Shown here in pieces: positions 15,000 through 50,856 of a stretch of DNA of 54,200 nucleotides. The stretch comes from an uncultured bacterium (GTDB taxonomy: Bacteria > Cyanobacteriota > Vampirovibrionia > Gastranaerophilales > Gastranaerophilaceae). Made by a program: the position numbers and the translations under genes. Each line of letters opens with the position of its first letter. The first letter of the stretch is position 1. The notes beneath the pieces are model-generated. The model ran no database searches and was not told the DNA's origin. It was given only the letters and a program-made list of their open reading frames with translations. Location of the stretch: assembly GCA_949291445.1 (NCBI GenBank), contig CASEVT010000084.1:1-54200 (forward strand). Reading direction: 5' to 3'.

Positions 15000-15719
15000 C
15001 TATATTGATTTTTTATCCTTAATCCGAAACGCAATTTGAGAAGGCGGATGCAGCATGTCGCCCACAGGCAGATAACCGTATTTTTGACGTATTCGTCTGA
15101 CCAACTCTTTTTTCTCAGGATCCGGATCGAAAAACAGCGTAGAATAAATACTAACACCATCTTTAATAATAAGCGCATCAGACTCACTAAAAATGTCACC
15201 GTATTTTTTCAAAAATGCACGATGTGCAGCGGCATTCATACCCAGATTGCCCAATTCTTCCTGTATAGAACTATCGCCGTCATTATCTTTCGCATGCCCG
15301 CACTCGTGCAATATTGCCTCCGCAAGTGCCAGTATTACCGGAAAATCTTGATTATTTTTGTACATATCATTAAGCATAATCAAGTTTTTGCTGTAATCGT
15401 ATTGAGCGTGAATATTTTTGGACGAAGTTTTTTCAAACGAAATTCTCACGTTAGACTTTTTAATAAAATCCAAAGCATCCTTGCCGGAACAAAACGGAAG
15501 CATTATCCCCATATTATTCAAGTATCTGATATCTTCAGAAGCAATTTGCAACTGTTCCAATTCATTAATAGCAGAAGAAATAGTAGGATCCTTCAGCCAA
15601 GTCAGTTGTTCAGCAAACAAAGGTTGAGGATTATTTGATGTTTGAGGATTTCGCCATTTATAATCCCTTATTTGAAAATTGCTTACAATACTATTAAAAA
15701 CCGGAGCTACTAAAGGCAC
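15000..15719 (-). CDS. Putative HExxH zinc metallopeptidase partnered with GntR-type regulator
   Basis: A 239-residue protein with a putative gluzincin-type active site: LHECGHAKDND, followed by SIQEELGNLG. The HExxH helix supplies two His and a catalytic Glu, and the downstream EE pair could supply the third zinc ligand. No signal peptide or membrane helix is apparent, so it is probably cytoplasmic. The C-terminal end contains HPPSQIAFR. The GTG start at 15719 has AGGT 7 nt upstream and lies 5 bp after the upstream regulator's stop, so the two are co-transcribed. It shares an extended motif with the TPR protein at 35521-36546. The family is unknown to me; proteolytic activity is inferred only from the motif. 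Confidence 0.75.
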   Translation of the reverse strand: MPLVAPVFNSIVSNFQIRDYKWRNPQTSNNPQPLFAEQLTWLKDPTISSAINELEQLQIASEDIRYLNNMGIMLPFCSGKDALDFIKKSNVRISFEKTSSKNIHAQYDYSKNLIMLNDMYKNNQDFPVILALAEAILHECGHAKDNDGDSSIQEELGNLGMNAAAHRAFLKKYGDIFSESDALIIKDGVSIYSTLFFDPDPEKKELVRRIRQKYGYLPVGDMLHPPSQIAFRIKDKKSI

Positions 15720-15724
15720 ACCAC

Positions 15725-16897
15725 TTACCTATCTGTTTCAAAAGTAAACGTATATTCAGGACTAACAGCGAGCCATCTGAAAGCTTGTGAACCTTCGGTC
15801 TCAGGAATATCCGTAACAAAAGTTCCGCCGTAGCGGCCTCTGGAAAATTGGACATAACCTTGTTTTGAAAGGTTTTGAAGTGCTTTTCGGATAGTATTGC
15901 TGCTAACATCGAATTTTTGAGACAACGCCTCCATAGAAGGCATTTTCTCACCGACTTCAAAAGTTTCTCTTATATAAGATTTTATAGAATTTTCAATTTT
16001 TTGATAGCTGTAATACTGTGCTTCTTCCGCCTTGGCAAAAATAGAAATTTCGTTTTCAGGTTGGAGCACATTATCGTTCGGCATCTTGATAATCGTAGTA
16101 CCATATCTGCCTCTTCGAGCCAATAATATACCTTCATCAATTAGTACTTTCATAGCATCGTGCACAGTTTTTATACTGACTTTAAGAATCTCTGAAAGCT
16201 CAAAGTGTGCCGGCAATCTGTCTCCCACCTTGTAAGTTTGACAGATGTAATCCTTTAGATCTTTTTCAACTTGTTTAACTAGAGTGCTGTTTTCATTTTC
16301 AGCATCGTCTTGTGAAAGCTGCGGCAAAGATTTTAATACCCAATTTGACTCATTAGACCGAAAAGCACGAGTTTCAAGTATTCCTATCGAACATAAGTAC
16401 TCCAGCGCCAGCCTTACTGTATTTGTTGAATGACCTATTATTGCAGAAATTTGACGTGCGGAAGGCAACGGCTCATTCAATTTCATTTCATTATCAATTA
16501 TATATTTTTTTATCTGTGCAATAACTTTTTCTCTTTTAGAAATCGATTTTCGTATAATCGGGTTAGAAGAATCTGCATTACGAATAACAGTTCCGATTCT
16601 CTGTTTTGATTCCAAATATCCGCTGTCTTCAACGTATCTTATAGCATTTTGAACAGTTCCGACACTCACTCCCAAATAATATGCCAGATCAGCTTTTTTA
16701 GGTAAAAGTGTATTCTCTTTTATTTTACCTTTTTTAAAACCGTTCACAATCCAGTCAGTTAGCCACTTACGAATTATCGAGTCTTTTGACTCAAACGAAT
16801 TTTTAAAATTCGGAATCTCTTTAGGCAGCTCGTTTAGCTCAATCCGCTTCAAATCAGCTTTCTCCAGCTTAGAAAAACTTTTTTGAAAGTTTGTCAT
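15725..16897 (-). CDS. GntR-type regulator with four tandem winged helices
   Basis: A 390-residue protein made of four consecutive GntR-like winged-helix domains at about residues 40-107, 121-185, 207-262 and 290-352. Each repeats the pattern LP-x-LS..L-VS..TV..A-..L...G. Examples are LAYYLGVSVGTVQNAIRYVE, ISAIIGHSTNTVRLALEYL, LSEILKVSIKTVHDAMKVL and LSQKFDVSSNTIRKALQNL. Domains 3 and 4 both end in an RRGRYG/SRGRYG wing. No effector-binding domain (FCD, UTRA or aminotransferase-like) follows, unlike normal GntR proteins of ~240 residues with one winged helix. GGAGG precedes the ATG at 16897. It leads a two-gene operon with the HExxH protein and is expected to bind an extended or multi-site operator. 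Confidence 0.85.
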   Translation of the reverse strand: MTNFQKSFSKLEKADLKRIELNELPKEIPNFKNSFESKDSIIRKWLTDWIVNGFKKGKIKENTLLPKKADLAYYLGVSVGTVQNAIRYVEDSGYLESKQRIGTVIRNADSSNPIIRKSISKREKVIAQIKKYIIDNEMKLNEPLPSARQISAIIGHSTNTVRLALEYLCSIGILETRAFRSNESNWVLKSLPQLSQDDAENENSTLVKQVEKDLKDYICQTYKVGDRLPAHFELSEILKVSIKTVHDAMKVLIDEGILLARRGRYGTTIIKMPNDNVLQPENEISIFAKAEEAQYYSYQKIENSIKSYIRETFEVGEKMPSMEALSQKFDVSSNTIRKALQNLSKQGYVQFSRGRYGGTFVTDIPETEGSQAFRWLAVSPEYTFTFETDR

Positions 16898-31674: not shown

Positions 31675-32187
31675 TTACTTCAGAGCTTTAATTCTTTCCT
31701 CGGGTTCAGAGATAGAAGTAATCCGAAGCCCAAAGTTGTCCTCAATAACGACAACTTCGCCGTTAGCAATATGTTTGCCGTTAGCGAAGAGTTCAACCTG
31801 TTCACCGGCAATTTTATCCAATTCAACAATTGATCCGCGGGTAAGCTCGAGAACTTTTTTAACCGGAAGCTGGCAGCGACCCAATTCGACAGTCAATTCC
31901 AGTTTTATATCCATAAGTAATTCTAAATTCTTGTTTGTATCTGTATTAGTAGGCGTATAGCTGTCAAAAGCGGTAAACTCGACCGGACGCACCGTCACAG
32001 GCTCATCATAATTTCTGCCTGAGTCTTCAATTTTAACTTCAGTAGAAGCAGGTGCCGCATCGTCATTCTCGGGCTGTGAAATTTGCCCGACATCGACATT
32101 TTCAAAATCAGGTTCAGTCGAAATTTCTTCCGGAGCAAGCTGATTATCTTGATTAAGGTTTTCATTATTTATATTATCGTCTGACAT
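31675..32187 (-). CDS. fliN: Flagellar motor switch protein FliN
   Basis: A 170-residue C-ring protein. The C-terminal SpoA domain (~95-168) shows LELTVELGRCQLPVKKVLEL, GSIVELDKIAGEQVELFANG and GEVVVIEDNFGLRIT. The N-terminal ~90 residues are acidic and disordered, without the CheY-docking motif found in FliY-type proteins. AGGG lies 7 nt before the ATG. It is the last gene of the motA-motB-fliL-fliM-fliN operon and also contacts the export ATPase complex through FliH. Confidence 0.95.
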   Translation of the reverse strand: MSDDNINNENLNQDNQLAPEEISTEPDFENVDVGQISQPENDDAAPASTEVKIEDSGRNYDEPVTVRPVEFTAFDSYTPTNTDTNKNLELLMDIKLELTVELGRCQLPVKKVLELTRGSIVELDKIAGEQVELFANGKHIANGEVVVIEDNFGLRITSISEPEERIKALK

Positions 32188-32199
32188 TTAGAGCCCTTT

Positions 32200-33234
32200 C
32201 TATAAAAATTGTTTTAGAGTATTAACATAATCGTCGTATCTATCGGTAATTTTTACGCATACCTTATTTTTAATTTTGCCGGGACGCGCGTAGAACTTGC
32301 GCTCACCGTTCACATTGACAATCAGATCATCAGTGCACAAGTTATCCAATTTTATAACATCACCGGGTTTAAGTGCAAGAACATCAGAGAACGGGAGTTC
32401 AGTTTGACCGAAAAGCACGCTTACGTCGATAAAAGATGTATTAAGTTTTTCAATCATTTTCTTTCGTTCTTCAGAAGTTGCAATTATGCCTTTAGTTTGA
32501 AAGATATGTTGAGTAGTTAACTGATCCAAAAGGTTTTCCAAGACCGGATACGGATAGCAAATGCTTATTAACCCATAGTGTTGACGCGCAATGTGCATTT
32601 CAAAAGTGACCAATGCAACGATTTCACCGGAGGATGCAATTTGTATACCGGAATAATTGCTATCCAAACCGATGAGCGAACTTTCAACGGGAGTAATGTG
32701 AGACCAGGCATTTTCAAGAGTCTGAATACTTCTTTCGATCATTTTTTTAACAAGCGACTCTTCAATATCAGTAAGCTCACGATTATTTTGTTCAATCGAA
32801 CCGACACCGCCGAGCATTCTATCAACAATACTTGATAAAACTTCAAAACTTATACCCATTAAAATCTGACCCGGCAGGGGATTCAACTCAAAAACGGCAA
32901 GCGAAACCGGATTCGGAATAGAATTCATAAACTCATCATATGTTAACTGATCGACAGAAACAACGTCCAATTCAATTTGCATACGCAGATATCCGGTCAA
33001 AACCATAGAAAGTTGTCTGGAAAACTCGCGATGGATATCCTGCAAACCTCTCAAATGATCTTTCGAAAACTTATCGGGGCGTCTAAAATTGTATAACTTA
33101 TAGCCTCGTTTAGTTTCCTCCTGAGGTTCGGTATCTTTAAGCAGCTCTTTATCGTCGAAATCTATTACATAAGAACCGGTTTCGTCGTTTAAAGAGTTAT
33201 CTTCATCAGTTTGAGGAACTCTGTCGGAATCCAA
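32200..33234 (-). CDS. fliM: Flagellar motor switch protein FliM
   Basis: A 344-residue C-ring protein. The middle CheC-like domain (~60-245: RPDKFSKDHLRGLQDIHREF, PGQILMGISFEV) precedes a SpoA domain (~255-340: LPFSDVLALKPGDVIKLDN). The usual N-terminal LSQxEIDALL peptide that binds phosphorylated CheY is missing and is replaced by an acidic unrelated stretch. The start is TTG at 33234 with AAGGAG 7 nt upstream. It lies 12 bp before fliN and 19 bp after fliL. Confidence 0.95.
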   Translation of the reverse strand: MDSDRVPQTDEDNSLNDETGSYVIDFDDKELLKDTEPQEETKRGYKLYNFRRPDKFSKDHLRGLQDIHREFSRQLSMVLTGYLRMQIELDVVSVDQLTYDEFMNSIPNPVSLAVFELNPLPGQILMGISFEVLSSIVDRMLGGVGSIEQNNRELTDIEESLVKKMIERSIQTLENAWSHITPVESSLIGLDSNYSGIQIASSGEIVALVTFEMHIARQHYGLISICYPYPVLENLLDQLTTQHIFQTKGIIATSEERKKMIEKLNTSFIDVSVLFGQTELPFSDVLALKPGDVIKLDNLCTDDLIVNVNGERKFYARPGKIKNKVCVKITDRYDDYVNTLKQFL

Positions 33235-33253
33235 TTTGAATCTCCTTAATCAA

Positions 33254-33835
33254 CTACTGCATAATAAATTCGCCGAAACTAACTCTCATAACCTCACGTT
33301 CGCCGTCAAAGACGTCATTAACCGCATCGGTAATTTCTTGTTTAGCAAGCTCTTTACCGGCAGCAGTTGCCAGCTCGTGAGAATTTTTACTGGTCATAAC
33401 AGTTATAATCGAGTCCCTTATTGCAGGTCTGTACTGTTCCATTTCAGCGAGAAGCGGGTTAGTTTTTTCGCCGTGACCGCCGTTTGGCGCCGTCGTGTCT
33501 ACTCCATGAGGATTCGTAACTTCAATAGCGACACTGATTTTTAGGAATCTGCGAGGGTTTACGTCGCTCAAGTTCATCGTAAATTCGCCCAAATCAAGGA
33601 TAATACCTTTTTCAGGGCGGTTTAATCTTGCTTCTTCATCCAATCCCATTCCCTCTGCCGTAACAGTTTTTAGCTGCGATTTAAGCAAGTTTTGTTGTAA
33701 AAAATAATTAGCCCCGACAAAAATTCCGCATACAATTGATGTTACGATTATATTTGCAAAAATAGAACCTTTTTTTTCACTTTTATTGTCAGTAGGTCTA
33801 ATTTCGGGTTCTTTTTTAGATACAGGTTTTGTCAT
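33254..33835 (-). CDS. fliL: Flagellar basal body-associated protein FliL
   Basis: A 193-residue single-pass membrane protein. A Lys-rich cytoplasmic N-terminus is followed by one transmembrane helix (IFANIIVTSIVCGIFVGANY). The periplasmic SPFH-like FliL domain shows LDLGEFTMNLSDVNPRRFLKISVAIE and the C-terminal VSFGEFIMQ. FliL surrounds and stabilises the MotAB stator. I start at ATG 33835, with GGAG 6 nt before it; an upstream TTG lacks spacing. It lies between motB and fliM. Confidence 0.92.
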   Translation of the reverse strand: MTKPVSKKEPEIRPTDNKSEKKGSIFANIIVTSIVCGIFVGANYFLQQNLLKSQLKTVTAEGMGLDEEARLNRPEKGIILDLGEFTMNLSDVNPRRFLKISVAIEVTNPHGVDTTAPNGGHGEKTNPLLAEMEQYRPAIRDSIITVMTSKNSHELATAAGKELAKQEITDAVNDVFDGEREVMRVSFGEFIMQ

Positions 33836-33851
33836 TTTTAACTCCAACTTA

Positions 33852-34544
33852 TTAATTATTATCAGAACTTAATATTATTATATCAACTCTTCGATTTTTT
33901 GCCCGTCCTTCGGGAGTATCATTTGAAGACACAGGCATATACTCACCGTATCCTACTGCAGAAAATCTGCCTGCGGAAAATTCGTGTTGTTGAGTCAGAT
34001 ATGAAATTATATTAGTCGCTCTGGCCGTAGAAAGTTCCCAATTTGAAGGATATTTCTCTGTCATTATCGGGCTGGAATCCGTGTGCCCTTCAATAACCAC
34101 CGGATTTTCAAACGTACTGAGTGTTTGCGCTATCTTATCCAGTTCAACCTTTGCTTCCGGTTTTATTATAGCAGAACCCAGATCAAAAAGCATATTATCA
34201 TTTAACCTTATAACTATGCCTCTTTTTTCTTTAAAAAATATTACAGAATCATCGAGCTGAGAATTTGCTTTCAATTCTTTCATAACCAGCTCAGGCGGCA
34301 ATATTTCTTTATCCGAAGGATTTTGCGGCTCATCTTCCGCCGATTTTTGAGCAGCATTATGAGTTTCACTGACAAAAACTTTTTCTAACGATTTATTAAC
34401 ATCCTTAATTTTAGATGCCCCCATGGAAGATGCTGCATACAAAACCATAAACAATGCCAATAACATTGTTATGAAATCCGCATAAGAAATTACCCAGCGG
34501 TTAATATAGTCATTTGAATTTGAATAGTAATCGTGTTGATTCAT
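33852..34544 (-). CDS. motB: Flagellar stator protein MotB
   Basis: A 230-residue stator B subunit. One transmembrane helix begins RWVISYADFITMLLALFMVL and carries the ion-binding Asp23. The C-terminal OmpA-like peptidoglycan-binding domain (~110-230) shows VIEGHTDSSPI, NWELSTARATNIISYL and RAKNRRVDI. It anchors the motor to the cell wall and conducts ions with MotA. It begins one base after the motA stop. Sequence alone does not decide between protons and sodium. Confidence 0.95.
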   Translation of the reverse strand: MNQHDYYSNSNDYINRWVISYADFITMLLALFMVLYAASSMGASKIKDVNKSLEKVFVSETHNAAQKSAEDEPQNPSDKEILPPELVMKELKANSQLDDSVIFFKEKRGIVIRLNDNMLFDLGSAIIKPEAKVELDKIAQTLSTFENPVVIEGHTDSSPIMTEKYPSNWELSTARATNIISYLTQQHEFSAGRFSAVGYGEYMPVSSNDTPEGRAKNRRVDIIILSSDNN

Positions 34545-35330
34545 CTATCTTACCCCGCAATGCTCTTTCAAAGAATGGCTTTTATCGTGGTAATTCAAAT
34601 ATGCAACCAGTTTTTCCTCAATAACAATTGGGGTTTCACCCATTTGAATCGAAACTATCCCCTGCAAAATAACCTCTTTAAGTAAAACCTTTTCACGCAA
34701 ATTCAACTTCAATTTTCCGGCAATCGGTAAAAACAAAAGGTTTGCGAACCCGACCCCGTACAAAGTTGATACAAAAGCAACGGCAATCCCCTGAGCGAGA
34801 ACCTCAGGCTGCTGTATATAGCTCATAATCTGTATAAGTCCCATTACCGCACCTACAATCCCAAACGTTGGCGCATATCCGCCAAACGCCTCAAAAACAC
34901 GGGAGTTAATAAGCTCCTCTTCTTCGGTAAAAGTTATTTCTGCCTTCAAAATATCATATATCATCTGAGGATTATTATAATCCATAGAAAGTTCAATACC
35001 GCGCCTCAAAAACGGATCCTGTATATTTGACGTAAGCTCGTTTAACGAAAAAAGTCCGTTGCGCTTCGCATAATGTGCCAGATATAAAATCTCATCTATT
35101 ACTTTTATTTGCGAATGATTTTTATTAAAAAATACATCCTTGGAAGATTTTAAAGCATTAAAAAGAGTTGCGGGGCTAAAATTCAACAAAGAAGCACAAA
35201 ACGTTCCGCCAAGAACTATCAAAATAGCAGACGGCTGAAACAACGAAACCATTGCCGCAGCTTCCGACTCTTGTGTCAGAAAAATTATTACAAATGCCAC
35301 TATCAGTGCAACTAAAGCTGAAAAATTCAA
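34545..35330 (-). CDS. motA: Flagellar stator protein MotA
   Basis: A 261-residue stator A subunit with four transmembrane segments and a large cytoplasmic loop after the second. The conserved pore region AFGGYAPTFGIVGAVMGLIQIM and the following GIAVAFVSTLYGVGFANLLFLP are clear. I start at TTG 35330, because AGAGG lies 5 nt upstream and the -10 box at 35362-35367 places the transcript start near 35355. That rules out the in-frame TTG at 35360. It is the first gene of the five-gene operon. Confidence 0.95.
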   Translation of the reverse strand: MNFSALVALIVAFVIIFLTQESEAAAMVSLFQPSAILIVLGGTFCASLLNFSPATLFNALKSSKDVFFNKNHSQIKVIDEILYLAHYAKRNGLFSLNELTSNIQDPFLRRGIELSMDYNNPQMIYDILKAEITFTEEEELINSRVFEAFGGYAPTFGIVGAVMGLIQIMSYIQQPEVLAQGIAVAFVSTLYGVGFANLLFLPIAGKLKLNLREKVLLKEVILQGIVSIQMGETPIVIEEKLVAYLNYHDKSHSLKEHCGVR

Positions 35331-35361
35331 TTTTGCCTCTACTATCCCCAATACTAACAAT

Positions 35362-35520: not shown

Positions 35521-36546
35521 ATGTCGCTAAGAATAAGTCCAATTAATATAAATAACCATATAAATTCATTTGCAGCAAAGCCAAAAGAAGCAGAACCGCT
35601 TGGCGCGAGCACTGTTTCTGCGGATGAATCATACAGATTGCAAGCCGATGAATATATGAAGGGCGGTTATTTTGACAAAGCGGTAAATTTGTATAAAAAA
35701 GCCCTGAGCGCAAACCCCCAAAACAATCAGGCCACTTTAAATCTTGCAAAAACATACAGACTACTTGGCGACTATAAAAGTGCAATCCCATATTTTGAAA
35801 AATCAAGTACCATCTCACCGGACGACATTGAATTGAAAACCATCCTCGGCGAATGCTACAAGTTTAACGGAGAATACAACAAGGCACTGACAAAGTTTAA
35901 GGAAGTATTGAGCATCGATCCGACGTACGACTACGCAAACAGAAATCTCCTAGATACTCAAAATTTACTGCTTGCCTGCTACAATCCGGATCAAGCACTA
36001 AAGGAACGCAACGAAACTGCTTTGAAGAATTTAAATCAAGCAGTCTATATGGCTGTGAACTTCTTTCCGAAAAAATTTGTAGAAAAACTACAGGATATTA
36101 CCGTAACTTTTGATAAAACTGAAAAAATGGGCGGACGTTCAAATATTGCTCAATATGAACACAACAAAAGAAAAATCTCGGTTATGGATGAGTACATATA
36201 CGCAAATCCCGTACTTACCGGCACATATATTGCACACGAATTTGTACACGGATACGATAATGATCCTTATACCTCTATAAGAGAAGAACAAGATGCCTAT
36301 CGGATACAAACCAAGTTTTGGCTTAAAAACGCAAAAAATATAAAAGATCCGGAAATGGATTACGTGGTAAACCTATACCAACAATCCCCCCAAACCCTCG
36401 ATAAACGGGTAGCTGAAATCTATTACCAAAGAGATCCAAACATCCCCGAAACCTCATTTAACCACCCGCCGGACAACCAAAAAGCGGCAGCAGCAAAACT
36501 CGGTACAAATTCTCAACCGCTAAAAGCCTATGACGTAATCGTATAA
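35521..36546 (+). CDS. TPR protein with C-terminal HExxH metallopeptidase-like domain
   Basis: A 341-residue protein with three to four TPR units (~36-150: KGGYFDKAVNLYKKALSANP, GDYKSAIPYFEKSSTISPDD, GEYNKALTKFKEVLSIDP). An HExxH-containing domain follows (~185-330). Its core reads YIAHEFVHGYDNDP, followed by SIREEQDAYR, giving two zinc-binding His, a catalytic Glu and candidate downstream acidic ligands. There is no signal peptide or membrane helix. The C-terminal domain shares the extended signature of the protein at 15000-15719, so they are distant paralogues. GAAG precedes the ATG. It is divergent from motA. Protease activity and substrate are unproven. Confidence 0.8.
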   Translation: MSLRISPININNHINSFAAKPKEAEPLGASTVSADESYRLQADEYMKGGYFDKAVNLYKKALSANPQNNQATLNLAKTYRLLGDYKSAIPYFEKSSTISPDDIELKTILGECYKFNGEYNKALTKFKEVLSIDPTYDYANRNLLDTQNLLLACYNPDQALKERNETALKNLNQAVYMAVNFFPKKFVEKLQDITVTFDKTEKMGGRSNIAQYEHNKRKISVMDEYIYANPVLTGTYIAHEFVHGYDNDPYTSIREEQDAYRIQTKFWLKNAKNIKDPEMDYVVNLYQQSPQTLDKRVAEIYYQRDPNIPETSFNHPPDNQKAAAAKLGTNSQPLKAYDVIV

Positions 36547-36615: not shown

Positions 36616-37914
36616 TTAATGCGCTTTTTTCTTAAAATTTTGGTTAAATTTTTCAACATTTTCAAGCGCAGGTGCAACCGCTTTTTCAATTATGTACTTA
36701 TGTACAAAATGGTCAATCGGGATTGCAAGACAACCCAATGCAATGAACCCACCTGCCGTCTTTAACCAGCCAAGCCGCATTTCTTTACCTTTTACAATAG
36801 GTCTTAGGGTATCACGTGCAATTTTCACCTTCTTAACAAATTTAGTTATATAATCGCGATCCTCAGGTTGCGCCATCAAATCAGAAAGAAGCTTTGCGGA
36901 TCTGTTCTTATCTCTTAACAACAATTTCAAACTATCACCCTGATAATTATCCAAAATCTGTGACTGATAAGTTTTTAACCTATCATCACCACTATTAAGA
37001 ATTTTTTTGAGGATAATTGACGGATTTTCAGCAATCAATTGTTGAACTTTAGCATCAATGTTTTTCAACGCTTTGTTATAATACTTGCGTGTCCTTGAAT
37101 CAAGCGCAGAAAGAGAGTCTTCCGTAATATTTTCCAACTTCGTTTGAAGCGAATAAATTTCATTTACTTTGTTTCTTACAAAATTGTCCACATCAGTTCG
37201 ATTGGAAGTAGCAGCAGAAACAGGTCGGCTGGAATGAGTAAAGAATCTTTTAACCTTAGCCCAGAGCCCTTCGGTTTTCAAATCTTGTTTTGTACCGGAC
37301 AGCAGTTTGTCAAAATCGTCATTCAAAATCCGATCCATGACTCTGTCAATACCTTTTCTCACAGTACCATCAGGTTTAATATAATCACCTTTAGCAAATT
37401 TGCCCTTATCAAAATCGCTCAAAATTTTTCCGTACAACTCTTCTTGAGCGCTGGCAGTAAGGTTTGAACCGTCATATTTTGTGGCTATACCGGCAATATT
37501 TTGACCCATTTTTACGGCAGCAGTAGGCAAAATTACACTGGCAAGTGCCTGAAATGTTGCCTGTTCCACAGCCTTATTAACAGAAGCCTCAGAGTAATTC
37601 CCCTCCTTACCTCTGGAATACTTATCATAAATATCAGCACCCAAATACAAAAGAGCAGGTATCCACAGCGCGACCTCAGCAGTCTTTCCCCAACCGGGCA
37701 TTGTAGATAATGCCGCACCGACTTCGTTTGCATAACCCATTGCCCTCACAGGGTACTGCGCCAGAGGATCCTCAGGGTTTTGCAACAATTCTTTTACTTC
37801 CTCTTTTTCCGTTTTCTTTTTAGTTTCAATATTTTGAAATGTCTGAGAGTATTTATTTGCGGCGTTTGCAAGAAATGTATTTACGCTTATCAATGACATA
37901 TCCCTTTCATACAT
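36616..37914 (-). CDS. Hypothetical protein with C-terminal membrane segment
   Basis: A 432-residue protein of no family I recognise. It has two short hydrophobic stretches near residues 80-95 (VALWIPALLYLGADIYD) and 125-140 (ALASVILPTAAVKMG). A Lys/Asp-rich helical middle (~145-370) precedes a probable membrane helix near 392-410 (TAGGFIALGCLAIPIDHFV). The C-terminal tail is basic. The start (ATG 37914) has no Shine-Dalgarno, and TATAAT sits 8 nt upstream, so a leaderless mRNA is likely. A second ATG 15 nt in is preceded by AAGGG but with only a 2-nt gap. It converges on the TPR-HExxH gene. Confidence 0.72.
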   Translation of the reverse strand: MYERDMSLISVNTFLANAANKYSQTFQNIETKKKTEKEEVKELLQNPEDPLAQYPVRAMGYANEVGAALSTMPGWGKTAEVALWIPALLYLGADIYDKYSRGKEGNYSEASVNKAVEQATFQALASVILPTAAVKMGQNIAGIATKYDGSNLTASAQEELYGKILSDFDKGKFAKGDYIKPDGTVRKGIDRVMDRILNDDFDKLLSGTKQDLKTEGLWAKVKRFFTHSSRPVSAATSNRTDVDNFVRNKVNEIYSLQTKLENITEDSLSALDSRTRKYYNKALKNIDAKVQQLIAENPSIILKKILNSGDDRLKTYQSQILDNYQGDSLKLLLRDKNRSAKLLSDLMAQPEDRDYITKFVKKVKIARDTLRPIVKGKEMRLGWLKTAGGFIALGCLAIPIDHFVHKYIIEKAVAPALENVEKFNQNFKKKAH

Positions 37915-42803: not shown

Positions 42804-43952
42804 ATGGATAGCAAGAAGAAAAAGATTTCAATCTTAGGTTCAACCGGCTCAATAGGTACTCAGGCAATCGAAGTTATCGAACGAATACCGGATTGCTTTG
42901 ATGTTCAGGCACTTTGCGGCGGTGACAATATTGATCTGCTTGTCGAGCAAATAAAAAAAATTAAACCTAAAACTGTTTGTACAAAATCTGAAAAAAATGC
43001 TAAATTACTTAAATCCGAATTTTCAAATATTAAAGTACTTTTTGGTGATGAAGGGCTCCAAGAAGTATGCTCTGACAAAACCAACGATATGATTTTGGTT
43101 GCTGTTTCGGGTAAAATAGGTTTAAAACCGACTTTGACAGCTATTGAAAATAAAATTGATATTGCACTTGCAAACAAAGAAACTCTTGTTATGGCGGGTG
43201 ATATTGTCATGAAAAAAGTCAAAGAAAAAAACATTTCGCTGCTGCCTGTTGACAGCGAACACTCCGCAATCCACCAGTGCATAAAAAACTTGAATGAAGT
43301 ATCAAAATTAATAATTACAGCATCGGGCGGACCTTTTAGAACAAAATCAATTGAAGAAATGGTCAACGCAACGGTCAAACAGACACTTGCGCACCCTAAA
43401 TGGCATATGGGCAAAAAGATTACAGTCGACTCGGCAACGCTTATGAATAAAGGGCTTGAGGTAATCGAGGCACACCATTTATTTAATATGCCCTACGAAA
43501 AAATTGAAGTCGTCGTGCACCCTCAAAGCATAGTTCACAGCGCCGTGGAATACCTTGACGGAAGTGTAATTGCACAGCTTGGATTTCCGAGCATGCATAT
43601 CCCTATCCAATATGCTCTTTCTTACCCGAATCGTCTTGAAGGGGTTGAGACAAAGAGTTTTGATTTTATAAAAGCTGCAAGATTAGACTTTGAAGAACCG
43701 GATTATACGAAATTCCCGAGCCTTAAACTGGCGTATGAAGCGGGCAAAAAGGGCGGAACTTATCCTGTTTGTCTTAATGCCGCTAACGAAGAAGCCGTTT
43801 TCGCTTTCTTGGAAGAAAAAATTCATCTGGGAGATATATATAAGATTACCGCTAAAATGCTCGATGAACACAACAACATAACTAACCCCTCAATAGATGA
43901 AATCTTTGAACAAGATAAAATCATAAGACAAAAAGTTAAATCTATGTTTTAA
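42804..43952 (+). CDS. dxr: 1-deoxy-D-xylulose 5-phosphate reductoisomerase
   Basis: A 382-residue enzyme of the MEP isoprenoid pathway. It converts DXP to MEP with NADPH and a divalent metal. The dinucleotide-binding LGSTGSIGTQAIEVI opens the protein. PVDSEHSAIHQC (metal ligands Asp/Glu), ITASGGPFR, HPKWHMGKKITVDSATLMNK and HPQSIVHSAVEY form the catalytic core. Normal length. Its stop codon overlaps the stop of the convergent fliI gene within the palindrome TTTAAA, so no separate terminator exists. Confidence 0.97.
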   Translation: MDSKKKKISILGSTGSIGTQAIEVIERIPDCFDVQALCGGDNIDLLVEQIKKIKPKTVCTKSEKNAKLLKSEFSNIKVLFGDEGLQEVCSDKTNDMILVAVSGKIGLKPTLTAIENKIDIALANKETLVMAGDIVMKKVKEKNISLLPVDSEHSAIHQCIKNLNEVSKLIITASGGPFRTKSIEEMVNATVKQTLAHPKWHMGKKITVDSATLMNKGLEVIEAHHLFNMPYEKIEVVVHPQSIVHSAVEYLDGSVIAQLGFPSMHIPIQYALSYPNRLEGVETKSFDFIKAARLDFEEPDYTKFPSLKLAYEAGKKGGTYPVCLNAANEEAVFAFLEEKIHLGDIYKITAKMLDEHNNITNPSIDEIFEQDKIIRQKVKSMF

Positions 43953-45298
43953 ATATCAACATTTGCCATCATTTGAATAATAGTATTAATGGTAGTTTCC
44001 ATCGATACCAGATCAGAAGTTCTTTGTTGCAAAAATGCATTCACCTGAGGAATCATTTGTATAGCGATGTCCAACTTGGGGTTTGAACCTGCAACATACA
44101 TACCTACATCAATCAAATCTTTATTTTCCCGATATAAAGACAAAATCCGTCGAACCTTAGAAGCCGCCTCCTGATGTTCACGTGTGGTAATAGAAGACAT
44201 AAGCCTTGAAATACTACCCAGAACATCTATAGCGGGGTAATGGTTCATTTCAGCAATTTTTCTATTCAAAAAGATGTGCCCGTCAACTATACCTCTCACA
44301 GTATCAACAATCGGGTCATTAATATCATCACCCTCCATCAAAACTGTATACAAAGCAGTAATAGAACCTCTGGGACTATTACCTGTTCGTTCCAGCACTT
44401 TTTGCAGCCATGAGAATATTGAAGGCGGATAACCTTTCATTGTAGGAGGTTCACCGATAGAAAGTCCTACTTCCCTTCCTGCCATAGCACATCTGGTTAC
44501 AGTATCGGTCATCAGAAATACTTTTTTGCCCTGATCTCGAAAATACTCCGCAACAGCAGTTGCAGCCTGCAAACACTTTTGACGAATCAAAGGCGGTTGA
44601 TCACCCGTTGAGCAAACAAGAACCGACTTTTTCATACCCAATTCACCAAGAGCATCTTCGACAAACTCTTTTACCTCACGTCCACGTTCTCCAATCAATG
44701 CAACCACGTTCACATCGGCATCAGAATTTCTGGCAATCATACCCAACATTGTACTTTTACCGACACCAGAACCGGCAAAAAGCCCCATCCGCTGTCCGCA
44801 GCCCAGTGTCAATGTAGAATCAATTGCCCTGACACCTGTTGAAAACATTTCCTTAATAATCGGACGCTCAAATGCCCCAGGTGGCGGCCCGTCTATATTA
44901 ACCCATTTTGCACTGGATGTATCCAACGGCAACCCGTCAATCGGCTCACCCAAAGGGTTAATCAACCTCCCCAAAAGAAACTCACCGACAGGAATCCTTA
45001 TAGGTTCTCCGGTAGTCTGAACAAGGCTGCCCTGACCGATTCCGGCACCATCGTATAATAAAAGCAACTGAGCAGCTTCACCCTTAAATGCCACAACCTC
45101 TGCAGCTTTTTTCTCACCTTCATACGTCTCAATAAAGCACAAATCACCGATTTTTAACCCCGGTAACTTTACTTCAACAGTTAACCCGAGCAACTTCGAC
45201 ACAGATCCTTTATATTGATACAACTGCGTTGTGTTAATGATCTGCTGAGCACGCTTTTTCATATATTCAATTGAACGTTCTTTATTTTGTTCAAGCAT
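43949..45298 (-). CDS. fliI: Flagellar export ATPase FliI
   Basis: A 449-residue F1-beta-like ATPase that powers substrate entry into the flagellar type III export gate. Walker A is FAGSGVGKSTMLGMIARN near residue 175. It is followed by ALIGERGREVKEFVED, Walker B LMTDTVTRCAMAGREVG and GSITALYTVLMEGDD. The C-terminal ERTGNSPRGS and HFPAIDVLxSISRLM-like HYPAIDVLGSISRLM also match FliI. It lies 2 bp downstream of flhA and is the last gene of the fliF operon. No FliJ gene follows. Confidence 0.96.
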   Translation of the reverse strand: MLEQNKERSIEYMKKRAQQIINTTQLYQYKGSVSKLLGLTVEVKLPGLKIGDLCFIETYEGEKKAAEVVAFKGEAAQLLLLYDGAGIGQGSLVQTTGEPIRIPVGEFLLGRLINPLGEPIDGLPLDTSSAKWVNIDGPPPGAFERPIIKEMFSTGVRAIDSTLTLGCGQRMGLFAGSGVGKSTMLGMIARNSDADVNVVALIGERGREVKEFVEDALGELGMKKSVLVCSTGDQPPLIRQKCLQAATAVAEYFRDQGKKVFLMTDTVTRCAMAGREVGLSIGEPPTMKGYPPSIFSWLQKVLERTGNSPRGSITALYTVLMEGDDINDPIVDTVRGIVDGHIFLNRKIAEMNHYPAIDVLGSISRLMSSITTREHQEAASKVRRILSLYRENKDLIDVGMYVAGSNPKLDIAIQMIPQVNAFLQQRTSDLVSMETTINTIIQMMANVDI

Positions 45299-45300
45299 TA

Positions 45301-47409
45301 TTAAGATCCCATATCATACTCAGGAATATAAGCCTCACCGATTGTATCCACCGCCTCAACCTTAATATCCGTAATCAATTCACTATATGAAATAACAACA
45401 ATAGTAGGAATATGCCGTTCAAGCAGTTGATACAAAGGCAATCTGATTCTGGGTGAACACAATATTACAGGCTGCCTGCCAACCGTCTGGTGCGCACGCA
45501 TTAATGTAGATGCAGTCGTCTCAATCAATTCTTGCACCTGCATCGGGTTCAAAAGGAACATTGTTCCAAGCTCTGTTCTTTGACAACTGTCATCAAGAGT
45601 TTTCTCCCATTCTGAGGACAATGTCAAAGCATACAATACTTTGTCTTCAGTAACATTGGAAAGACAAATCTGACGTCCCAATGCCGCACGAATACGTTCT
45701 GAAAGGATATCCGGCTCTTTTGAAAATCTTGCATAATCGCATAACCGCTCGAATATGAATATAATGTCCTTGATAGAAACTTTTTCTCGTATAAGGTTGA
45801 CAAAAATCTTACGTAAATCGCTTGTAGATATAATCGTAGGAATAAGATCATTAACAAGTGTAGGATCTTGACTCTTAACGAGTTCCATAAGTTTAAGAAC
45901 ATCAGTTTTCGTCATAACTTCATCAACATATTTTCTTACACACTCTTGCAAGTGCGTAACAATTACATCCACAGAATCGACAGCCGTCAAGTGATCATCC
46001 GGATCAATCTGTCCTTGATCTACCCAATAAGCTTGTGCCTGATAAGTAGGATCAACATTTACAATTGCATCCGGAGGAGTAGGTTTACCCGTTGCATCCC
46101 ACTGATCAGCAATAACCATGAACTTTCCGGGGTACACGTATCCTGTAGCTACGGTATTACCGCGAATTGATATCAAATACTCATTCGCATCCAGCGCAGA
46201 TGAGTCCATGATCCTTATATTCGGAATAATATAACCCAGCTCATCCGTAACACGTTGTCTTAATGCAGCAATTTTTGCAAGCAATTGACCTTCCTGATCC
46301 GGATCCGCTATCGGCAACAATCCTGAACCAACCTGCAATGCAAGTACATCGACACCCAATCTTTCATACATTTTGTTCGGGTTAACCAGATCTTGCATAT
46401 TCTGTCGAACACTTTCAAGTTGCCCTAACTGAGCTTGTACATCTTGATTAACAAGCACTGAAAATCCGGCAATCGCGATTATTATCGTAAAGAACAAGAA
46501 CGGAAACCAAGGCAAGCCCGTTACACTGCTTGTTACCACAATTAGCATTAAAAATGCACAGGCAAAAAACAAACTATACGGCTTATTCAAAATTTGAGCA
46601 GCCAAATCAAGACCCAAACTTGAACTGGCAGCAGAAGAACGAGTCATCACTATACCTGCAGCTATTGACATTAACAACGACGGCACCTGTGATGCAAGAC
46701 CGTCACCTACCGTCAATACTGTATATTTTTGAACTGCATCGGCAGCAGGCATACCGTTCAAGAGCACACCTATACACAATCCGCCAATAATGTTTATTAT
46801 AACGATTATAATACCTGCAATCGTATCTCCCTTTACGAATTTCATAGCACCATCCATTGAACCGAACAATGCTGATTCTCTTTGCAAATCCTCTCTTCGC
46901 TTAACCGCTTCTTCAGGTGATATCAAACCGGCATTAAAATCCGCATCTATTGTCATCTGCTTACCCGGCATAGCGTCCAATGCAAATCTCGCTGCTACTT
47001 CCGCTATACGTTCCGCACCTTTGGTTATTACCATAAACTGCACTATTGTAATAATTATAAAAATTACACCGCCTACAATCAGATTACCTCCGGTGACGAA
47101 TGTTCCAAATGCGTGAATAACTTCACCGGCTTCACCTTTTGCAAGAATTAACCTTGTTGATGCAATACTTAATACCAACCGGAACATCGTTCCTATCAAT
47201 ATGATTGACGGAAATGCAGCAAGCTCCAACGGCTTTTGTATATACAAAGAGATCATCAACAATACTATTCCCAGTGTTATATTCAAGCTTATTGAAAAAT
47301 TGATTACCCAATTCGGCATTTCAATCAGCAAAATTAATATCAGCATTATTACAAATACTGCTAACGAAATTTCACTTATAGGATTAGATTGTGATTGTGA
47401 TCCTGCCAA
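45301..47409 (-). CDS. flhA: Flagellar biosynthesis protein FlhA
   Basis: A 702-residue export-gate membrane protein. About eight transmembrane helices fill the N-terminal half, starting LAVFVIMLILILLIEMPNWV. The FHIPEP-family core is in FPSIILIGTMFRLVLSIAST and the charged cytoplasmic loop (GKQMTIDADFNAGLISPEEA). A large C-terminal cytoplasmic domain (~340-700) docks chaperone-substrate complexes. The start is TTG at 47409 with AAGGAG 5 nt upstream. It lies 11 bp after fliH. FlhB and FliPQR are not in the window. Confidence 0.97.
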   Translation of the reverse strand: MAGSQSQSNPISEISLAVFVIMLILILLIEMPNWVINFSISLNITLGIVLLMISLYIQKPLELAAFPSIILIGTMFRLVLSIASTRLILAKGEAGEVIHAFGTFVTGGNLIVGGVIFIIITIVQFMVITKGAERIAEVAARFALDAMPGKQMTIDADFNAGLISPEEAVKRREDLQRESALFGSMDGAMKFVKGDTIAGIIIVIINIIGGLCIGVLLNGMPAADAVQKYTVLTVGDGLASQVPSLLMSIAAGIVMTRSSAASSSLGLDLAAQILNKPYSLFFACAFLMLIVVTSSVTGLPWFPFLFFTIIIAIAGFSVLVNQDVQAQLGQLESVRQNMQDLVNPNKMYERLGVDVLALQVGSGLLPIADPDQEGQLLAKIAALRQRVTDELGYIIPNIRIMDSSALDANEYLISIRGNTVATGYVYPGKFMVIADQWDATGKPTPPDAIVNVDPTYQAQAYWVDQGQIDPDDHLTAVDSVDVIVTHLQECVRKYVDEVMTKTDVLKLMELVKSQDPTLVNDLIPTIISTSDLRKIFVNLIREKVSIKDIIFIFERLCDYARFSKEPDILSERIRAALGRQICLSNVTEDKVLYALTLSSEWEKTLDDSCQRTELGTMFLLNPMQVQELIETTASTLMRAHQTVGRQPVILCSPRIRLPLYQLLERHIPTIVVISYSELITDIKVEAVDTIGEAYIPEYDMGS

Positions 47410-47420
47410 TTTTTCTCCTT

Positions 47421-48170
47421 TTATATCTGTTTAAATGCTTCTTTCAATATATTCAATTGAGTTGATATATTGGCATCTATCAGTCCGTTTGATGTTTCTA
47501 TTATAACACCGCCCTCATCCACGGTTTTATCTGCCGTAACAAATATTTTAGCATCAACTTGTCCCGTTTGAAGGAGTTCCGGCACCATTTCTTTTGTATA
47601 TTCTACATCAGCCGGTGCTACTTTCAGTATAATCTTATTTTCATCTTTTGCCAGATTTTCCAGCGCATCATACACAATATCTTCAAGGATTGTCTTATCT
47701 GCACTTACTTCACGTTTTATTATTCTTTCTGCCGCACACAACGCTATATCAAGGATATCGCCCGACAATTTTTCACACATCTCATTTTTATATGCAAAAA
47801 AGTTATCCAATGAATCCCGAAGTTCTTCAACATCCTTTTGAGCCTTATTTATGCCTTCTTGATAACCTTCTTTTGCAGATTCTTCCTTGATAGATATTGC
47901 CTCTTCCTGAGCTCGGGAGATTAAATTTCTGTCATCAATACGCCGATAACCGCGTCTTCTGTCACCACGCCGCCTTTCGGAGCGTTGATTAAAGTCAATA
48001 TTTTGAAAATCAAAACCCTCAAATATATCCGGTTCCTCTTCCACAACAGGCTCAGGCTCTGCAAGCGGTAAACTTTCATACTCAGGCTCCTGCATCTCTT
48101 CTATATGAACCGGTTCTGGTTTTTTAGGTTCCGGCTTTTTTTCTAAGAATTTTTTTCTTTTTATTATCAT
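47421..48170 (-). CDS. fliH: Flagellar export ATPase regulator FliH
   Basis: A 249-residue FliH/V-ATPase-E-like protein. The N-terminal ~70 residues are Pro/Glu-rich, followed by an arginine-dense patch (RSERRRGDRRRGYRRID). A long helix (~85-140, EEAISIKEESAKEGYQEG) and the C-terminal FliH domain (ILDIALCAAERIIKREV, VDEGGVIIETSNGLIDANIS) complete it. It binds and restrains FliI and links it to FliN. The ATG at 48170 overlaps the upstream gene's TGA (ATGA), indicating coupled translation. Confidence 0.9.
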   Translation of the reverse strand: MIIKRKKFLEKKPEPKKPEPVHIEEMQEPEYESLPLAEPEPVVEEEPDIFEGFDFQNIDFNQRSERRRGDRRRGYRRIDDRNLISRAQEEAISIKEESAKEGYQEGINKAQKDVEELRDSLDNFFAYKNEMCEKLSGDILDIALCAAERIIKREVSADKTILEDIVYDALENLAKDENKIILKVAPADVEYTKEMVPELLQTGQVDAKIFVTADKTVDEGGVIIETSNGLIDANISTQLNILKEAFKQI

Positions 48171-49150
48171 CCCAGTTTTTCTTCCAAATATTGACAAATT
48201 ATATTGCCAACCATCGGCGCTATCTCATAATTCTTATTATCAGCCGCACCCAGTACAAATTTCTTTACCGCTGTACGTTCTTTGCCTACAATATTAGATA
48301 TTTTTGGAATATTTCCATTGTCCACTATTGCATGCAATCTTTCAAACAATCGTTCCATGTTAACTTTATGTGATTCAGGCAAACTATCTTGGATCTCTTT
48401 TATGCACTTAATCGAAACATTCGTATCAATCTTATTTTCGAGCCCATCCATTTTGGCATATTCTTCAACAATTTGAGCATCTTGTTTATCGAACTTTCCA
48501 AGCAATGCTCTTTGGCGATTTGGCGGCAATCGTTTGATTACCATTGCAAGTGTCGCCAATTTCAATATCTTATTATCACTAACCTGAGCTATCTGCTCAC
48601 GAACCTGAGCATTAGGCTGCGATTGTTGTGCCTCTGCTGCCGCGGCTTCTTGTTGCACTTGTTCTGCCATTGCATCTATATTCGAATAACTTTCAGCCTG
48701 ATTAACCTGCTCATCGGTCATTGCCCCTTTGGACTTAAGCTCTTCCAAAGCCTCAACATAAGCTCTTTTAACATGATGCTCAACTACGGCAATCATATCG
48801 CCTTGCGGGAGATTTTTTATTATAGCTTGTTTTGCTATTTCAAAAACTGTAAAAGCAATCTTTTGTAAAATTCCGTCTCTAAACTGTGGATCTACTTTGC
48901 CCTTAATCAAATCTATCGATTTATGGAATGCCCACTCTCCGATAAATTGTGTAACAATACTTGCCTGCTCCGCATTAAAATTCAGTGCAGTATCATTCGA
49001 GAGCGCCTCGCCTGCCATATAGCAAAAATTATAAACAATGTTAACTATATACTGCCTGTCAGGTCCTTGTATATCTTCGGGGATAACCTGACTCGCCTGA
49101 TCGGCAAGACTTTTTGCAAATTCTTTAAAATCGAAACCCTCTATAGGCAT
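48167..49150 (-). CDS. Protein in the fliG position; probable very divergent FliG
   Basis: A 327-residue protein between fliF and fliH, exactly where fliG normally lies and of nearly the same length. Clear FliG motifs are lacking. Residues ~1-150 form a helical domain not like the usual FliG N-domain. A Gln/Ala-rich linker (VQQEAAAAEAQQSQPNAQ) follows. Residues ~195-235 (LATLAMVIKRLPPNRQRALLGK) loosely resemble the FliG middle armadillo repeat. The C-terminal end (MVGNIICQYLEEKLG) loosely matches the last FliG helix. The charged torque helix cannot be identified. GAGG precedes the ATG. FliG is the likeliest role by position; a lineage-specific replacement is the alternative. Confidence 0.6.
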   Translation of the reverse strand: MPIEGFDFKEFAKSLADQASQVIPEDIQGPDRQYIVNIVYNFCYMAGEALSNDTALNFNAEQASIVTQFIGEWAFHKSIDLIKGKVDPQFRDGILQKIAFTVFEIAKQAIIKNLPQGDMIAVVEHHVKRAYVEALEELKSKGAMTDEQVNQAESYSNIDAMAEQVQQEAAAAEAQQSQPNAQVREQIAQVSDNKILKLATLAMVIKRLPPNRQRALLGKFDKQDAQIVEEYAKMDGLENKIDTNVSIKCIKEIQDSLPESHKVNMERLFERLHAIVDNGNIPKISNIVGKERTAVKKFVLGAADNKNYEIAPMVGNIICQYLEEKLG

Positions 49151-49230
49151 TTTCCTCGTCCCTTTTTATATGGATGACCTTGTAGTCTTTATTTGGTCAT
49201 CGTTTCCCTAACTTTTAACCTTATCAGGTT

Positions 49231-50856
49231 TTATGCTTTTTCAATCCAGCTTTTTACATGTTCTGCAATTTCATCATCACCTATATCTTCCAGTTCCGAA
49301 GTTAAAGATGATAACGCTGAATTGAGTTCAGGGATACCTTGATTTTTCTGTTCAATCATTCCCTGAGAGAGCTGAGATTGACGTTCTATCAATTCCGCAG
49401 CCTTTAAATTTACATCCCGTAATTGTTTTTCCTGCTCAAGTGCTTTTTCTCTGAGCATTTCTATTTCACGTCTTTGTTTTTCTTGAGCGGTTTTAATTTT
49501 GCCGGATAAAACTTTCAAACCGACTCCAAGTCCACCCACCAGCAGTGCGATTGCAATCCACCACGGATTTCCTGTTTGATCAGGTTTTGGCAGTGTTTCA
49601 GGCTTATCACCGGCAAGAAAAGGATCTATAGAATCTGTGAACGCAATTTCTACATTCTCCGGACGTGCTTTGGGTGATGCCGCTTTTGCTATCAACACTT
49701 TCATTTCTTCAAGTGTTGTATTTGGCGGAATTGAGCTTTCTTCTAGCGTTATGGCAATCGATATATCTTCTACCACTCCGGGTTTCAAAAATTCGTTCGT
49801 CATAACTTTTCCGACACCGTATTGTGTTTCTCTTGCTGTTCTGGAATAGCTTCTGTTTTGCGACGAATCGGCATTATTGGCAGGTAACCCGTTTGGCAAA
49901 TAAACACTTACAGCACTAATCCCTTTATTCGAATCTCTTGTTTGATCGCCAAGACCTTCTGAGAATGTTTGTTCTGTCAATGCTGTCTTTTTACTCGGAT
50001 CAAAATCTATTGTGCTTTTATCCATCGGAGCTTGTCTTAGATATGTACTTACTGTGGCTACGTAATTGCCTTTTCCGACCAATTTGTCCATTTGAGCCTT
50101 AACTTTTTGCTGCATGTACTGGTCGTTTTCTTGCAATTTCGCTAACAAATCGTCATCTGCAGTAATTATACTGTCATAGACATTACCATTTGTATCAGTT
50201 ATCGATATATTTTCTGATTCCAAACCGTTTATTGAACCTAACAACAGGTTTTTAACCGCTTTTACTTTCATTGCATCTAATTTTTCACCGCTTGGCATAA
50301 CAATTTGAACCGTTGCGGTAATCGGTTTTTGATCGGCAGAAAACATTGTTTGTTCCGGTATTGATATAAATACCGAGGCATTCTCTATCGGCGGAATTTT
50401 TCGGATCAACCGTGATAATTCACCGTTTATTGCTCTTGCAAGACGGATTCGTTTATCTTCTTTTGTCGATGTAAAATCACCCTTATCAAAGATTTCAAGA
50501 CCCACATTTTGATCCATCAACCCGCTTTTAACTATCGCTAATAGCGCCCTGTCTCTTTGGGTCATCGTATATTTTTCCATATACAAAGTAGATTTTGTTC
50601 CGTCTACTCTTCTTTTTATCTCAATACCTTCCCTTGCCAAGAGTGCTTGTATTTCTATGGCTTTGCCGAGGTTGTCAGTCGTGAGCAAATCCAACGGCTC
50701 TTTTATTACTTTTTCCTTAACCGTTTTTGCAGGATTATCAGACTTGGATGCAGACAGCGCAAATCCAAGGGTAATAAACAACGCGAAAACTACTACGAGT
50801 CCCCCTATTATCCCATACAACAATGGCTTATTCTTCGTCAAGTCTTGTAAATTCAT
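49231..50856 (-). CDS. fliF: Flagellar MS-ring protein FliF
   Basis: A 541-residue ring protein. The first transmembrane helix is IIGGLVVVFALFITLGFAL. The periplasmic ring-building domains include LAREGIEIKRR, ARAINGELSRLIRKIPPIENASVFISIPE and TATVQIVMPSGEKL. The second transmembrane helix is PWWIAIALLVGGLGVGLKVL near residue 440. The cytoplasmic tail ends DDEIAEHVKSWIEKA, like the FliG-binding ends of other FliF proteins. It is the first gene of the operon, 80 bp before the fliG-like gene. FliE, FlgB and FlgC do not precede it here. Confidence 0.96.
   Translation of the reverse strand: MNLQDLTKNKPLLYGIIGGLVVVFALFITLGFALSASKSDNPAKTVKEKVIKEPLDLLTTDNLGKAIEIQALLAREGIEIKRRVDGTKSTLYMEKYTMTQRDRALLAIVKSGLMDQNVGLEIFDKGDFTSTKEDKRIRLARAINGELSRLIRKIPPIENASVFISIPEQTMFSADQKPITATVQIVMPSGEKLDAMKVKAVKNLLLGSINGLESENISITDTNGNVYDSIITADDDLLAKLQENDQYMQQKVKAQMDKLVGKGNYVATVSTYLRQAPMDKSTIDFDPSKKTALTEQTFSEGLGDQTRDSNKGISAVSVYLPNGLPANNADSSQNRSYSRTARETQYGVGKVMTNEFLKPGVVEDISIAITLEESSIPPNTTLEEMKVLIAKAASPKARPENVEIAFTDSIDPFLAGDKPETLPKPDQTGNPWWIAIALLVGGLGVGLKVLSGKIKTAQEKQRREIEMLREKALEQEKQLRDVNLKAAELIERQSQLSQGMIEQKNQGIPELNSALSSLTSELEDIGDDEIAEHVKSWIEKA

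Follow-up and report, generated by a model that had tools for sequence, protein, structure and literature searches.

Minigluzincins such as selecase, abylysin and jannalysin (PDB 4qhi, 4jiu and 4jix) provide a small, soluble zinc-peptidase scaffold, and BepA-type M48 peptidases (PDB 6ait) combine a gluzincin domain with TPRs; BepA is periplasmic and carries its TPRs after the peptidase domain. In the ImmA/IrrE group (M78), represented by PprI (PDB 8sln), ImmA and PprI/IrrE inactivate transcription factors, and ImmA/ImmR and PprI/DdrO are known regulator–protease pairs. The SprT/Wss1 group likewise has a small zincin fold. Here we analysed a window of 54,200 nt (the whole stretch of DNA under study) from an uncultured bacterium and found that two of its genes, termed A and B, represent a genuine subfamily, hitherto without a name, within a fold class already known. 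Both open reading frames are as the initial annotation described them, and are laid out as follows:

35521-36546, plus strand: gene A, encoding a 341-aa soluble TPR and zincin-like protein, ATG start
35521-35625, plus strand: N-terminal low-complexity segment of A, residues 1-35 (alignment of 27 homologues)
35626-35937, plus strand: three TPR repeats of A, residues 36-139 (Pfam TPR_2 2.2e-18, three stretches)
36001-36543, plus strand: zincin-like domain of A, residues 161-341 (alignments and AlphaFold2 model)
15000-15719, minus strand: gene B, encoding a 239-aa homologous zincin-like protein without TPRs, GTG start

Residues 1-35 of A are polar and poorly conserved in the 27-homologue alignment, where a short [SN]F-x-[GA] motif often occurs. 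A linker separates the TPRs from the C-terminal domain, and TPR models match all 27 homologues, in agreement with the fusion reported initially. Protein B shares this domain but lacks TPRs, and its N-terminal part is different. A search of A for a transmembrane segment or a Sec signal found neither. Strong purifying selection acts on A (dN 0.086, dS saturated) and on B (dN 0.067, dS 2.48); both genes are maintained.

As HExxH by itself is common, A and B might be unrelated proteins made alike by chance or convergence. A single BLASTP comparison of the two gave 36% over 78 aa (E=1e-5), and HHalign of family A against family B gave P=5e-8 over 123 columns, which begin at the strand preceding the HExxH helix and extend to the C-terminal HPP region. 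When the A profile was run against its whole own genome, B was the sole match besides A (E=1.2e-6), and A genes were the next-best matches of the B profile in other genomes. These reciprocal matches, the HHalign probability and the conservation that runs co-linearly between the AQ[YW] strand and the C-terminal His already contradict chance likeness, which we regard as extremely improbable. Judged by sequence, the two domains are homologous and their likeness goes beyond a chance HExxH, as had been claimed; the profiles did not place them in two separate, already described families.

The signature common to A and B consists of hAQ[YW], then HExxH-x2-DxD-x3-S[IV]xEE, and then a His near the C-terminus. 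Its strict form is kept in 26 of the 27 A homologues and in 30 of 30 B homologues, the exception being an A homologue, L022, that has HELGIH in place of HExxH. In the translations the core appears as HEFVHGYDNDPYTSIREEQDAYR (residues 239-261 of A) and HECGHAKDNDGDSSIQEELGN (residues 138-158 of B). The conserved elements are:

36145-36156, plus strand: IAQY of A, residues 209-212, invariant; predicted to form a beta strand ahead of the active-site helix (model strand 50-53)
36235-36249, plus strand: HEFVH of A, residues 239-243, predicted zinc-binding and catalytic HExxH, kept in 26/27
36256-36264, plus strand: DND of A, residues 246-248, both Asp invariant and the middle N variable
36274-36288, plus strand: SIREE of A, residues 252-256, with S, E and E invariant; start of the following helix (model 93-110)
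36460-36471, plus strand: NHPP of A, residues 314-317, N and His invariant; paired by HHalign with the HPP of B
15294-15308, minus strand: HECGH of B, residues 138-142, strict motif in 30/30 homologues
15255-15269, minus strand: SIQEE of B, residues 151-155 (alignment of B homologues)
15042-15050, minus strand: HPP of B, residues 224-226, His invariant

This alignment refines the motif first proposed. The spacing is indeed identical in A and B, with a spacer of x3 rather than x4 (HExxH-x2-DND-x3-SI-x-EE); both Asp of the DND hold up, but its middle N is not invariant. The HPP is present in both proteins, near rather than at the C-terminus (residues 315-317 of 341 in A and 224-226 of 239 in B), and only its His is invariant across homologues. 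The upstream parallel, AQYEHNKRKISVMDEY / AQYDYSKNLIMLNDMY, occurs in both proteins and is conserved; in the strand motif of B homologues HA is invariant and Q nearly so. Because S[IL]xEExxA is also present in other small zincins of these genomes, only HExxHxxDxD together with hAQ[YW] is peculiar to A and B.

Searches of Pfam and NCBIfam with A and B, and of PHROGs with A, gave no match above cut-off beyond the TPRs, consistent with the initial view that the family has no name. Below cut-off, Peptidase_M78 (PF06114) touched 2 of 19 B members (best E 0.044) and Peptidase_M48 one of 19 (best E 0.086), neither touching any A member; SprT-like models touched 2 of 23 A members (best E 0.037). The window's own B protein drew a single Pfam model, DUF6782 (PF20573), a putative metallopeptidase family, at E=0.24 and 11.1 bits against a cut-off of 27. 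Among PDB sequences, the A1 and A2 profiles found no minigluzincin chain at E<=10 and nothing credible. The metzincin pattern HExxHxxGxxH/D does not describe A or B, in which position 8 is an invariant Asp instead of Gly and position 11 has no conserved His or Asp.

An AlphaFold2 model of the A domain (residues 161-341), built from an alignment with seven other rows, reached pLDDT 84.1 and pTM 0.80, with pLDDT >=90 at 111 of 181 residues. It places strands first, then the HExxH helix (70-86), a short loop, the EE helix (93-110) and C-terminal helices. In the A model HExxH thus lies on a helix (70-86), as in gluzincins, and the motif is kept in 26/27 homologues of A and 30/30 of B; in the alignment and predicted model of A the invariant EE pair begins the helix that follows. 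In a Foldseek search of the PDB with the A model, the top seven matches were the minigluzincins selecase, abylysin and jannalysin (probability 0.87-1.00, E 0.01-0.12); later, weak matches included ArdC, anthrax lethal factor and BepA (E 3.5). Among viral models, the matches of A were IrrE-like, SprT-like and PolyVal peptidases. The B model was poor (pLDDT 54, from an alignment that included A rows) and serves as secondary support only; it too matched minigluzincins first, followed weakly by PprI, BlaR1 and Wss1. Across both models the leading minigluzincin block had probabilities of 0.82-1.00 but E-values of 0.01-0.3. Foldseek TM-scores were only 0.3-0.6, and these modest values, like the E-values, are partly explained by targets of ~105 aa.

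Because minigluzincins are the best matches of the A and B models alike, these point to a new subfamily within a known fold class, predicted to be gluzincin-like, closest to minigluzincins and without a name in the libraries searched. The proposal of a distinct metallopeptidase-like family is therefore retained for the subfamily and not for the fold. The subfamily differs from minigluzincins in several respects: the profile searches of the PDB detected no sequence relationship, A carries TPRs, both proteins have additional C-terminal helices that include an invariant His, and the EE pair follows the second His after only 12-13 residues. BepA has the same two modules as A, but A has its TPRs first, no signal peptide and no above-cut-off Peptidase_M48 match. 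With ImmA/IrrE, A and B share the fold class (A has IrrE-like viral models among its high-ranking matches, B has PprI as a weak one, and B adjoins a regulator gene), but PF06114 is not significant. The SprT/Wss1 group gives weak matches, and in A and B HExxH is followed by invariant D-x-D and EE, not by a third His. The subfamily adds an unnamed, apparently lineage-restricted member to the smallest zinc peptidase class.

These features allow us to propose a mechanism for A. The TPR groove would bind a partner protein, and the TPRs would choose the substrate, which would be aligned along the edge strand (IAQYEH...KISV). Zinc would be held by H239, H243 and one Glu of S-I-R-E255-E256, one of the two Glu in SIREE being the predicted third ligand; because the spacer of 12-13 residues that separates the EE pair from the second His is short, D246 or D248 might take the place of this Glu. 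The zinc would activate a water molecule with E240 as general base, and the invariant C-terminal H315 may help to stabilize the transition state, a role played by a distal His in thermolysin. In this way A would cleave a specific intracellular protein, the cytosol being the simplest site of action because A has neither a Sec signal nor a membrane segment. The TPR fusion suggests a route by which so small an enzyme could gain a specific target.

The same fusion would also suit a binding role, and a zincin-fold protein that acts as a metal-dependent scaffold or binding protein without peptidase activity deserves mention in view of L022, whose HELGIH disrupts the HExxH spacing and indicates that activity may not be universal in the A family. 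With HExxH and EE kept in all 56 homologues besides L022 and the general-base Glu invariant, we consider such a loss of activity very unlikely for the family. A and B are probably specific protein-cutting enzymes, and on balance we favour the view that they form two branches of a lineage-specific, gluzincin-like zinc metallopeptidase subfamily with the mechanism proposed above. Candidate catalytic residues can now be named for genes of an uncultured gut lineage that existing libraries leave blank.

In the window, B lies 5 bp downstream of the following gene:

15725-16897, minus strand: regulator with several GntR-type winged-helix domains (Pfam GntR 3.5e-43, 4 stretches)

No recognised effector domain was seen in this multi-GntR protein. 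B is directly downstream of the regulator in genera g1, g6, g33 and g17 and, by coordinates, adjoins it in genomes G031 and, divergently, G037. By analogy, this arrangement suggests a regulator–protease relationship like that of ImmA/ImmR or PprI/DdrO. B, and by descent perhaps A, might then act in the cytosol as a peptidase inactivating some transcription factor, with the upstream multi-GntR regulator as the target of B. The spacing of a few bases in the window, the adjacency in several genera and the weak resemblance of the B model to PprI and BlaR1, both of them acting on repressors, agree with this idea. It fits less well with the regulator being a single-copy core gene (143/146 genomes of the family) while B is accessory (~41/146), with the two being unlinked in genera g16, g18, g22 and g27, with A having no such regulator neighbour, and with PF06114 reaching just the two B members; we therefore regard it as rather doubtful. 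A broader proposal, in which B and the core multi-GntR protein form a new regulator–metallopeptidase switch in Gastranaerophilales and A is a TPR-targeted counterpart cutting another specific cellular or exported partner, is in our judgement unlikely. If B does act on its neighbour, the two would constitute a regulator–protease pair outside the ImmA/IrrE and BlaR/MecR types.

In the homologue collection, which covers 146 genomes of the same family, A is found in 25 and B in ~41 (the search matched 44, of which three weak matches were discounted, two of them on A genes). Among 292 genomes of the phylum, strong matches to A or B came from one family and, within the same order, from a single genome of another family, and a single-sequence search of genome contigs returned six relatives, those with informative titles being labelled Gastranaerophilales or Candidatus Adamsella avium. 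No relatives were found on viral contigs (A and B) or among phages and plasmids (A). On these matches the subfamily is apparently lineage-restricted, seen here in one order, Gastranaerophilales as judged by record titles. The lineage also contains further small zincins that are more distantly related (L092-L104, L107), most with signal-like N-termini; HEAIHQDEFASLNEETYAW together with a signal-like N-terminus is found in one group of them, HESVHHENTKTYEEEVRAW in a second and an EF-hand in a third, and their peptidase parts had no Pfam match above cut-off.

The neighbours of A are not conserved between most genera examined. A motA gene lies beside A only in the window and in L009, whereas G019 lacks this neighbour despite belonging to the same genus, and a flagellar role of A suggested by this neighbour was rejected because it is shared with L009 only. 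A 432-aa protein without a Pfam match also adjoins A (36616-37914, minus strand), and among the neighbourhoods examined only L009 shares it. Elsewhere in the window is a larger set of genes:

43949-50856 and 31675-35360, minus strand: second FlhA-type export apparatus, with the FlhA-type gate at 45301-47409

It comprises FliI/SctN-, FliH/SctL- and FliF/SctJ-like genes together with FliN, FliM, FliL, MotB and MotA. The FlhA, FliI and FliF scores fall under the flagellar and injectisome equivalog cut-offs alike, and FliI passes solely the broad FliI/YscN model. FHIPEP is present in 145 of 146 family genomes and flagellin in only 59; three genomes without a flagellin match (G006, G073 and G010) keep the FliF-X-FliH-FlhA operon, with FlhA 83-85% identical. 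Such gene sets have been read as incomplete flagella (PMC4040986; PMC3787301 for MEL.A1).

The presence of this second gate in nearly all relatives raises the question of whether the type-III-like apparatus exports A as a substrate, making it a secreted peptidase that works outside the cell. A has no Sec signal, and its polar, poorly conserved N-terminus with the recurring [SN]F-x-[GA] resembles those of other proteins of its own genome, G000, in which the motif is mildly enriched at N-termini (4.3% vs 1.5%, p=0.004). G032 shows no such enrichment, and for this reason the motif is kept as a lead only. A is commoner in flagellin-positive genomes (19/25 vs 40/121, p=1e-4), but when genera are compared the association lacks significance (p=0.12). 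As the window and L009, but not G019, are the only cases of A adjoining motA, and a cytosolic location is common for TPR proteins, we consider export of A distinctly improbable and retain cleavage inside the cell as the preferred reading. Other, unrelated N-termini follow the pattern of A (35521-35580), with M-x-I, a polar stretch and [SN]F[KG][GA] (L150, L152, L154, L166); from sequence, the pattern could be a sorting signal or chance.

Between the FliF- and FliH-like genes, a conserved 327-aa protein (48167-49150, minus strand) had no Pfam or NCBIfam match and is also present in flagellin-negative genomes. Near the second FlhA locus of flagellin-negative genomes, and elsewhere too (L122), are small proteins with MG[LM]xxSQxR-like starts, which are possible substrates of the second FlhA apparatus:

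L168, 2585-3559 and 4870-5202: MG[LM]xxSQxR-like proteins
L170, 19580-19906: MG[LM]xxSQxR-like protein
L171, 1131-1457: MG[LM]xxSQxR-like protein
L122, 3536-4216: MG[LM]xxSQxR-like protein
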